Origin: Salinibacter altiplanensis
Lineage (GTDB): Bacteria > Bacteroidota > Rhodothermia > Rhodothermales > Salinibacteraceae
Direction: 5' to 3'
DNA length: 64,000 nt
Assembly (NCBI RefSeq): GCF_002894645.1
Contig: NZ_NCQY01000004.1
Span: forward strand, 1 to 64,000
Position numbers and translations under genes: made by a program. Positions 9,811 through 43,777 of the stretch are shown in pieces. Every line of letters starts with the position of its first letter. The stretch's first letter is position 1. The notes beneath the pieces are model-generated. The model made no database searches, was not told the origin of the DNA, and was given only the letters and a program-made list of their open reading frames with translations.

Positions 9811-10194
9811 CTACTTCTTCTGGGTCGACTGACTACGGCCCGCTACGGTCTTGCGCTTGCCCTTCCGGGTCCGAGCATTTGTCCGCGTGCGCTGGCCGTT
9901 CACCGGGAGTCCCTCGCGGTGCCGCTTGCCACGATAACAGCCGATGTCTTTGAGGCGCTTGATGTTCATCTGCACCTCGGTGCGAAGCTGGCCCTCCACC
10001 GTGTAGTCTTCCTCGAGAATGCGCCGGACGCGCTTGGTCTCGCTCTCCGTCCACTCGCGGGGACACTTGTCGTGGTTGACCTCAGCCTTTCCCAGAATCT
10101 CACTGGCCCGCGACTGGCCCACCCCGTAGATCTCGGTGAGCGCAATCTCTCCGCGCTTGTCATCTGGCACGTCGACTCCTTCAATTCTCGGCAT
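9811..10194 (-). CDS. rpsM: 30S ribosomal protein S13
   Basis: A 127-aa uS13 of the 30S head, contacting 5S/L5 and P-site tRNA. It begins [14 protein letters not shown], has the helix-two-turn-helix [13 protein letters not shown] and the [19 protein letters not shown] motif, and ends in a basic tail. The gene directly upstream in the transcript is infA. The usual rpmJ (L36) gene is not between them. Confidence 0.97.
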
Positions 10195-18662: not shown

Positions 18663-19376
18663 CTAGGAGTCTCCGCGGCGCTGGCGGCGCTGCTGGGGAG
18701 ACTCCTTCATCTTGCGCTGCTGCGCCTGCACATTCGGGCTCAGGTCCGGCTTGCCGAGAATCTCTCCGCGGTGGATCCAGACCTTGACCCCAATCGTGCC
18801 GTAGATTGTGAGGGCGGTCTCCTGCGAAAAGTCGATGTCGGCGCGAATCGTGTGGAGTGGAACGCGCCCCTCCATGTACTCCTCAACGCGTCCCATCTCG
18901 GCTCCGCCCAGGCGCCCGGCGGCACGGATGCGCACGCCCTCAGCCCCCATGCGCATGGCGGCCTGCATGGCCTGCTTCATGGCCCGCCGAAAGGAAATGC
19001 GCCCTTCCAGCTGCTGCACAATGTTTTTCGCAACGAGCGTGGCGTCGAGCTCCGGACGCTTGATCTCGCTGATGTTGATCTGGATGTCCTTCCCTGTAAG
19101 GGTCTGAAGCTCTCCCTTCAACTTCTCAACCTCGGACCCGCCCCGGCCAATCACGACGCCCGGGCGACTCGTGTGGAGGGTCAGGATAACTCGCTCCGGT
19201 GTGCGCTCAATGACCGCCCGGCTCAAACCGGCGCGCTTGAGGCGCGTGTGCAGGTAACGGCGCAGCTCTTCGTCCTCGACGAGCTTTTCCTGGAAGTTGG
19301 TCTCGGAATACCAGTTGGAGTCCCAACCACGGATGGCGCCGAGGCGAAAGCCTATGGGGTGCGTTTTCTGGCCCAC
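18663..19376 (-). CDS. rpsC: 30S ribosomal protein S3
   Basis: A 237-aa uS3 at the mRNA entry. The [12 protein letters not shown] start, KH domain ([21 protein letters not shown]) and C-terminal domain ([36 protein letters not shown]) are all present. The start codon is GTG at 19376. The protein ends in a Gln/Arg-rich tail. Confidence 0.97.
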
Positions 19377-42530: not shown

Positions 42531-43668
42531 CTACACCGGTGATGTATCCCGGTCTTTCTTTCCCTTCAGCAGGTAGGCTTTGATAAATGGATTCAATTTG
42601 CCCTCCAGCACAGCCTCGGCATCGGTCCGCTTGGTCTCCGTCCGGTGATCATTTACCATTGTGTAAGGGTGCAGCACATACGAGCGAATCTGACTCCCCC
42701 ACTCAATGCTCTTTTTTGAATCTTCGAGTCGTTCCTTTTCCTCTTCCTTGAGCTGCCGCTCTGCCTGGTAGATACGGCTCTTGAGCATCTCACGTGCCCG
42801 ACGACGGTTCTTGTGCTGGCTCCGTTCCTGGGTGCATGCGGCGCGAACCGTCGTTTCGTCTCCGTTGGACAGGGTGCCCGTCCAGATGAGCCGCACCCCC
42901 GTTTCCACCTTGTTGACGTGCTGCCCTCCCTTCCCCCCGGACCGAAAGGTCTGCAGCTCGATTTCCCCATCGCCGAGATTGACGTCAATGCCATCGTCGA
43001 CCTCGGGGTAGACGAAGACGCTCGCGAACGAGGTATGGCGGCGGCTATCGGCGTCGAAGGGCGAAATGCGGACCAGCCGGTGGACACCGGTCTCGCTCTT
43101 CAGTCGGCCATAGGCGTAGGTGCCCTGCACATTCAGGGTCGCACTCTTGATGCCGGCCTCTTCTCCGGACTGCTGATGAACGAGCTCCACCTCGCAGTCC
43201 TGCTCTTCGGCCCAGCGCATGTACATGCGGAGCAGCATCTCGGCCCAGTCCTGGCTTTCGGTGCCTCCGGCCCCCGGGTTAATCTCAAGAATGGCGTTCC
43301 GCTCATCGTCGGGATCATCGAGGAGGCTCTCCAGCTCGAGCCGGTCGAGCTTCTTTTCGAGCCGTCCGGCCTCCGCGGCAATTTCGTCCGACATGTCTTC
43401 CCCCTCTTCTTCAGAGAGAAGCTGGAGCGTCTCGATGTCTTCGGCCTGCTCCTTCACGTCCTCCCAGGCCTCGATCCACTCTTCTTCCCGGGCGATTCGT
43501 TTTTCAATCTCACGGGCCCGATCCGGATCGTCCCAAAAGTCGGGATCCATCCGCTCCTGGTTCAGCTCCTCTACGGTCATGCGGCGACCGTCTACGTCAA
43601 AGATAGCCCCCGAGCGCCTCGACGCGCTCAGCTAGCTGTTCGAGGTCTTCGTCCGAGTACGACTTCAT
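42531..43668 (-). CDS. prfB: Peptide chain release factor 2 with programmed +1 frameshift
   Basis: RF2, which reads UGA and UAA. The gene is in two overlapping frames: a 23-codon first part from ATG 43668 to an in-frame TGA at 43597-43599, and the main frame from GAC 43598 to 42531. The junction reads GGGGGC TAT CTT TGA C, the classical RF2 autoregulatory site. Skipping one base after CTT gives a 378-aa protein. The main part has the GGQ loop (SGGKGGQHVN) and the stop-codon recognition region. An annotation that begins at the internal ATG 43580 would miss 29 residues. Confidence 0.95.
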
Positions 43669-43777
43669 GATCGGGGAAGAGGAATTTGACGAGAATGTAG
43701 ACTAGAGGTGAGTCCGATTGCCTGTAGAAACCGGGGCCCGAGGAGGGATGTTTCTCCGGGCCGAGCACACCAGGCCC

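Follow-up and report, generated by a model that had tools for sequence, protein, structure and literature searches.

An upstream hairpin at the prfB frameshift site of Rhodothermia and its possible part in +1 frameshifting

The prfB gene, which encodes release factor 2 (RF2), is the textbook bacterial case of +1 frameshifting, and its site is described in terms of a Shine-Dalgarno (SD) sequence, a slippery codon, a stop codon and one further base. The locus considered here, which lies in a 64,000 nucleotide stretch of DNA from a Rhodothermales bacterium (the whole of this stretch is referred to below as the window), raises the question of how lineages that are poor in SD sequences keep a switch that is said to depend upon an SD. 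This paradox has already been published for Bacteroidia, where 523 of 726 genomes with an occluded anti-SD keep the prfB frameshift (PMC8710568), and the finding of the initial annotation, viz. a complete RF2 frameshift site in an SD-poor genome, is thus known in kind; novelty of the paradox itself was accordingly rejected. The authors of that work have postulated a prolonged pause due to additional cis elements or factors, none of which they name. The results described here concern a hairpin adjoining the prfB site, which makes the above question testable.

The prfB frameshift site in an SD-poor genome

The features of the prfB locus are summarized in Table 1. All components that had been claimed for the frameshift site (23 codons, GGGGG, CTT and TGA C) were confirmed at their positions, and when CTTT is taken as a single step, translation of the gene yields an uninterrupted RF2 of 378 aa. 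The gene shares with known prfB +1 frameshifts a CTT-TGA near its 5' end, an RF2 sequence that continues in the +1 frame and a C after the stop codon, and it also has an SD-like tract upstream of the CTT, together with CCUCC in the 16S rRNA. A pattern built from this site (GGGGGNTATCTTTGAC) has a single match in the window as against 0.00 in shuffled sequences. Two genes with the domain PF00472 were found in the genome, prfB being one of them; the other, which we take from its sequence to be prfA, has rpsF and rpsR as neighbours, and a nearby ORF is presumably rplI-like. A comparison of the site across relatives, which the initial annotation had called for, located it at the equivalent position in 50 of 51 Rhodothermia loci (17 further loci were read separately, and L024 ends before the site). 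Judging by the sequence and by this conservation, synthesis of RF2 by +1 shifting, earlier regarded as near certain, may be upheld as being as good as certain for this gene. In a published survey, a premature stop was present in prfB from 8,164 of 12,753 genomes, with the SD, its spacing, CTTT and the C all highly conserved (PMC12421855). At the prfB site of some other members of the phylum (L215, L227, L232, L209, L219, L224) CTT TAA replaces CTT TGA, and TAA at this place is known from rare genomes (PMC12421855).

Table 1. Positions in the window of prfB and of the elements of its frameshift site
Feature	Positions	Strand	Remarks
prfB (RF2), programmed +1 frameshift	42531..43668	minus	378 aa post-shift; terminator TAG
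Zero-frame leader ORF	43597..43668	minus	ATG to CTT, 23 codons; in-frame TGA next
Start codon ATG	43668-43666	minus
23rd codon CTT	43602-43600	minus
In-frame stop codon TGA	43599-43597	minus
C after the stop codon	43596	minus
Slippery CTT, in-frame TGA and C (CTTTGAC)	43596..43602	minus
+1 frame ORF, remainder of RF2	42531..43598	minus	starts with GAC
SD-like tract GGGGG	43607..43611	minus	4 nt 5' of CTT; predicted anti-SD pairing -8.6 kcal/mol
Hairpin GAGCGC-(6 nt)-GCGCUC	43612..43629	minus	6 bp; 3' arm ends at -10 from CTT, without a gap to the SD-like tract
Stretch 5' of the prfB start	43669..43690	minus	no evident SD sequence

The claim that this genome is SD-poor was borne out. The motifs GGAG, GAGG or AGGA were present at positions -20 to -5 in 7.1% of the 325 predicted genes (444 kb), as against 14.2% in a control stretch further upstream, and the corresponding values for E. 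coli by the same method (50 kb, 39 predicted genes) were 71.8% and 10.3%. The genes were predicted by a finder based upon codon bias, which in the E. coli check (70 annotated genes) placed all 39 predicted stops but only 29 of the 39 starts correctly, and these percentages are therefore approximate. The region before the prfB start itself pairs with the anti-SD at -3.3 kcal/mol, a strength reached or exceeded by 125 of the 325 sampled starts.

A low frequency of SD sequences at starts and an unusually strong SD before rpsU are features of the Bacteroidia-type ribosome with a sequestered anti-SD. The premise that a Bacteroidota-type ribosome is present stands as regards the scarcity of SDs and the rpsU gene (see below), but the sequestering type is not established for Rhodothermia. 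The bS21 protein matches the PDB chain 7jil_z (residues 5-52 of the query with 4-51 of the chain), and ungapped extension of this match would place its Arg55 opposite the pocket residue Tyr54 of Flavobacterium johnsoniae. The 3' end of the 16S rRNA gene (G000:C19) is GGATCACCTCCTAAA; CCUCC, the absence of which was to have counted against use of the anti-SD at the prfB site, is present. The terminal letters of this gene, CCTCCTAAA, agree with the published remark that in Salinibacter and Rhodothermus the last U of the anti-SD is replaced by A, the SD logo being absent (PMC3155529). Within the class, the exact 3'-end pattern could be located in 15 of 60 genomes and RF00177 in one of seven (a partial match), perhaps because the 16S gene is not assembled in the remaining genomes. 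It is plausible that the anti-SD is still used at the prfB site during elongation, and the strong SD before rpsU (-15.0 kcal/mol, a value reached by none of the 325 sampled starts) points in the same direction.

The SD-like tract of the window is the weakest in pairing among the sampled sites of its class. Its distance from the CTT is 4 bases and not the usual 3, which is also the published consensus spacing (PMC12421855). In the anti-SD register that pairs best, the spacing is 3 nt at 41 of 50 Rhodothermia sites and 4 nt at nine. A 4-nt spacing by best pairing is also seen in 14 of 67 named sites elsewhere and in seven of 32 other draws of the phylum; being thus common, it was rejected as a unique feature and was not taken to exclude this prfB from the +1 frameshift class. 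One of the hexamers GGGGGC, GGAGGC, GGAGGT or GGAGGG is present at 18 of 63 Rhodothermia sites, and the GGGGGC of the window, which is found also in three genomes of family f7, has the weakest energy (-8.4) of the eight hexamer types seen at these 63 sites and the lowest pairing score among the Rhodothermia sites of the spacing comparison. The pairing of the GGGGG tract is equalled by 13 of the 325 sampled starts, and in a control, equal or better pairing within the preceding 18 nt was found for 146 of the 1213 CTT codons that lie in frame in predicted genes. By pairing strength alone this tract is not special within genes; its position and conservation set it apart. The earlier view that GGGGG necessarily serves as an internal SD is hence incomplete, since the tract is present but displaced by one base and the weakest in pairing, and a conserved hairpin adjoining it had been overlooked.

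A hairpin beside the frameshift site and its conservation

When the sites were listed by codon phase, an inverted repeat whose 3' arm extends to -10 was seen upstream of the tract. In the window this hairpin folds at -10.7 kcal/mol (3 of 200 shuffles are as good), and comparison of the site (L084) with synonymous recodings gave a p value of 0.012; the entire 73-nt fold is unremarkable (z -0.78). A stable stem upstream of a frameshift site is a feature of upstream-hairpin stimulators.

Of 70 Rhodothermia frameshift sites, 67 have a stem of at least 5 bp that ends exactly at -10 from the CTT, the exceptions being L105, L108 and L403; among 106 sites from other bacteria, 12 have one. When the end was relaxed to -10 to -12, such a stem was found in 68 of the 70 Rhodothermia frameshift sites, in five of 15 without the frameshift and in 34 of the 106 sites elsewhere. 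Neither a site nor a match was obtained for L024, L070, L098, L192, L206, L207, L210, L213, L216, L220, L230, L345 and L346; of these, L210, L213, L216, L220 and L230 do have sites, but they were missed by the anchor and are thus absent from the 106 others. The sequences of L342 and L370 (both from G206) are below the length needed for the stem test.

An ordinary frameshift site, where SD:anti-SD pairing acts alone and the inverted repeat results from conserved residues (E-R ... A/T-L) in conjunction with codon bias, could account for such a pattern, given that the tract and CCUCC are both there, that RF2 leaders commonly contain E-R...L residues and that a few gammaproteobacterial sites (L055, L060, L064) have similar stems. 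Most of the stability is lost, however, upon synonymous recoding of the same residues. For the 24 nt preceding the SD in 62 Rhodothermia sites, the mean folding energy is -8.29 kcal/mol as compared to -3.25 kcal/mol for the recodings (p<0.05 in 47 sites and p<0.01 in 23), whereas for the 106 other sites these values are -3.33 and -2.88 kcal/mol (p<0.05 in 10 and p<0.01 in one). A group of 33 sites sampled from elsewhere in the phylum (-1.83 vs. -1.65) is no more stable than its recodings, and p<0.05 was obtained in 3 of the 33. The residues also differ in families f3 and f9, yet a stem with the same 3' end is formed there. The stem occurs in four registers that share this common 3' end, and the new sequences seen in other registers are GAGTAC/GTACTC and GAGCAC/GTGCTC in f3, GAGGGC/GCCCTC in f9, GAGTG/CACTC in G231 and AAGGTT/GACCTT in G279. 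Codon bias likewise fits poorly, as CTC is chosen even where it is a rare codon; in a relative with 40% GC (G065) it makes up 70 of 884 Leu codons, yet it is used at the site (L183). In view of these observations and of the genes without a frameshift described below, we regard SD:anti-SD pairing alone as an unlikely explanation, and the hairpin beside the prfB site as very probably a conserved RNA element.

Similar stems also adjoin the prfB sites of two Kangiella, one Idiomarina and one Gemmatimonadetes MAG (L055, L060, L064, L017), those of L055, L060 and L064 having p<0.05 against the synonymous null. These stems are perhaps convergent or an older remnant.

The pairing was examined further by searching 244 Rhodothermia genomes with a pattern that required G/C at -27, A/T at -26 and CT at -12/-11. 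A match was obtained in 191 genomes, and 139 genomes among the matches listed were used, with second, clearly unrelated matches within a genome left out by eye. Among the matches listed, 131 of the 139 genomes have a stem of at least 5 bp ending at -10, and the closing pair (-27/-10) is G-C in 110, C-G in 21, G-U in one and unpaired in seven; an A-U closing pair is found in G207 and G291. A change in this pair ties the first base of one codon (GAG, CAG or AAG) to the third base of a Leu codon. The C-G pair is present in families f47 and f49 and in one genus of f11, and as relatives with G-C stand next to it in f49 and within the f11 genus, the family labels point to at least three independent double changes. 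Family f3 also varies in one pair, with U-A in L102 as against C-G in L103.

Covariation was scored in two alignments, A1, which was not chosen by the pattern, and A2, which contains 80 of 90 unique sequences, ten near-duplicates having been removed by hand. The proportion of paired cells is 87.1% in A1 and 91.5% in A2, and the covariation scores (0.127 and 0.155, respectively) were reached by 1 and 0 of 500 shuffles and exceed those of slid versions, which are at most 0.099 and 0.092. The number of pairs changed on both sides (two of the six) was not above that in the shuffles, 42 of 500 for A1 and 398 of 500 for A2 reaching two. As four or five of the six pairs hardly vary and thus show little covariation, and the relatives are not independent, the weight is carried by the closing and innermost pairs together with the alternative registers. 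No structure was predicted by RNAalifold with default scoring, and with RIBOSUM scoring of the full sets it yielded this hairpin and a second small stem.

In 15 Rhodothermia genomes RF2 is encoded in one frame. These belong to four families (f1 genus g111, f5 genus g106, f6 and f41), all of them Rhodothermales families (loci L098, L345, L390-L397, L400-L402, L406 and L410), and one genus among them (G347, G348) is in the same family as the window. The GGGGG is still present in two of these genes (G375, G376), and a stem of at least 5 bp at -10 in one of the 15 (G372). Their mean folding energy is -4.19 as compared to -8.14 for the 70 frameshift sites, and the stem is associated with the frameshift (Fisher p 2.6e-12, Mann-Whitney p 1.8e-6, both uncorrected for relatedness); G343, a partial match, is outside this comparison. 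That the stem is mostly missing where the frameshift is missing is a further point against SD:anti-SD pairing alone. In G375 and G337-G339 the inner stem is kept but ends one base earlier, and the frameshift was probably lost recently in these genomes.

Possible roles of the hairpin in +1 shifting

The prfB of the window resembles the E. coli-type site in its SD-like tract, CTT, TGA, next C and RF2 ORF in the +1 frame, but the tract is one base farther from the CTT and a hairpin is located directly upstream. It is also similar to prfB from F. johnsoniae and other Bacteroidia in that the site is retained by an SD-poor lineage, whereas the F. johnsoniae gene has a perfect AGGAGG at a 3-nt spacing (PMC8710568). 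In a 70S system with CUUUGA, the stimulation of +1 shifting by an upstream hairpin amounted to about 60% of that by the internal SD, and its effect, which was seen only without RF2, tracked the stability of the hairpin (PMC6321510). Those hairpins, like the one described here, are upstream of CUUUGA and mimic the internal SD duplex; they differ in being designed, 12 bp long and beside the E site, in contrast to a natural stem of 5-7 bp with the SD in between. According to a general remark in the literature, minor hairpins 5' of slippery sites may have been overlooked (PMC10885494). The words "hairpin" and "secondary structure" have no matches in the main text of the prfB survey (PMC12421855), and no earlier report of a hairpin by the prfB site in these bacteria was found in the literature covered, which consisted mostly of titles and abstract openings and left subscription papers largely outside.

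By analogy with the published in-vitro effect (PMC6321510), the hairpin probably acts in cis from its upstream position to stimulate +1 frameshifting, either by helping SD:anti-SD pairing or by taking its place in part. On this basis it is likely that prfB is autoregulated by +1 shifting at CTT TGA C with the aid of a hairpin, typical of the class Rhodothermia, that abuts the SD-like tract. Given the exact abutment, the two helices might be stacked end to end, though we put this forward tentatively and consider it the less probable part of the proposal. That Rhodothermia employ a two-part duplex, in which the hairpin is stacked upon a short SD:anti-SD helix or replaces it, and so possess a natural upstream-hairpin stimulator of +1 shifting, has in our estimation slightly less than an even chance. 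Since a stronger SD is retained by most of the sampled Rhodothermia outside the window's family, the hairpin is not simply a substitute for the SD.

The proposed sequence of events would be as follows. When RF2 is scarce, the ribosome would wait, CTT occupying its P site and UGA its A site. Once it had refolded behind the ribosome, the hairpin could either meet the SD:anti-SD helix end to end or stand in for it at the mRNA exit, and by pulling upon the mRNA it would favour the slip from CUU to UUU. More speculatively, stacking might steady an SD:anti-SD helix that is weak or hindered.

An opposite effect is suggested by a longer fold of the window's prfB, in which the stem takes in the two leading Gs of the tract and could thus mask the SD rather than help it. 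The hairpin would then be a negative element that, in the window's family, hides the SD and lowers frameshifting. This extension is not general, however, as in many relatives the base at -28 or -29 is one that cannot pair, and the conserved base of the stem is the pair -27/-10, which is outside the tract; we consider a negative role very improbable. A purpose of another kind, whether in stabilizing the mRNA, in causing a pause ahead of the site or in binding a feedback factor, seems nearly as improbable, for the 3' arm abuts the SD tract exactly and the hairpin is missing from most of the one-frame genes. Stimulation of +1 shifting therefore remains our preferred reading. A lineage-specific RNA element tied to the site would alter the textbook description of prfB, and the two-part duplex, if true, would be the kind of extra cis element that has been postulated for SD-poor bacteria. 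The different registers and pair types provide compact natural material for measuring the effect of an upstream duplex on the ribosome.

Other translation signals and stop codon usage

The rpsU gene, which encodes bS21, often has an SD in Rhodothermia. Among 30 rpsU loci (L127, the genome's own rpsU, and L114-L143, L293 and L294), pairing is at or below -13 in five and at or below -9 in 17, and the start codons, as called by the analyst, are TTG in 15, GTG in nine and ATG in six. The upstream region CGGAGGGATCTACC TTG is nearly identical in the window's own genome, two congeners and two nearby MAGs. This pattern fits the autoregulation of bS21 that has been established for Bacteroidia and Chlorobia (PMC9976891); the string "rhodotherm" has no matches in that paper.

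Two genes of the window differ from most others in having predicted GTG starts that follow SD-like GAGG and GGAG sequences, respectively. From their sequences we take these genes (18663-19376 and 9811-10170, both on the minus strand) to be rpsC and rpsM, and the SD perhaps aids weak start codons in them.

The commonest stop codon in the 325 predicted genes (64% GC) is TAG, with 174 occurrences as against 103 of TGA and 48 of TAA, and it forms only 24% of the intergenic stop triplets in the genome sample (the window and L233-L251). In the window, TAG terminates what are presumably the EF-Tu gene and many ribosomal protein genes. The use of TAG by bacteria has been reported to be constant at about 20% (PMC3549826, PMC9348620), and the high value seen here runs counter to this. 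A link between a weak prfB site and low use of TGA was considered in view of the TAG-rich genome of the window, and was rejected as a general rule: G030 (f4) and G179 (f8) have a 4-nt spacing by best pairing and yet use 72 and 77% TGA, and G201 (f41), with 43% TAG, is without the frameshift. The share of TAG is 37-58% in two congeneric genomes and three nearby MAGs, 17-21% in G003, G030 and G179, and 44% in G208.
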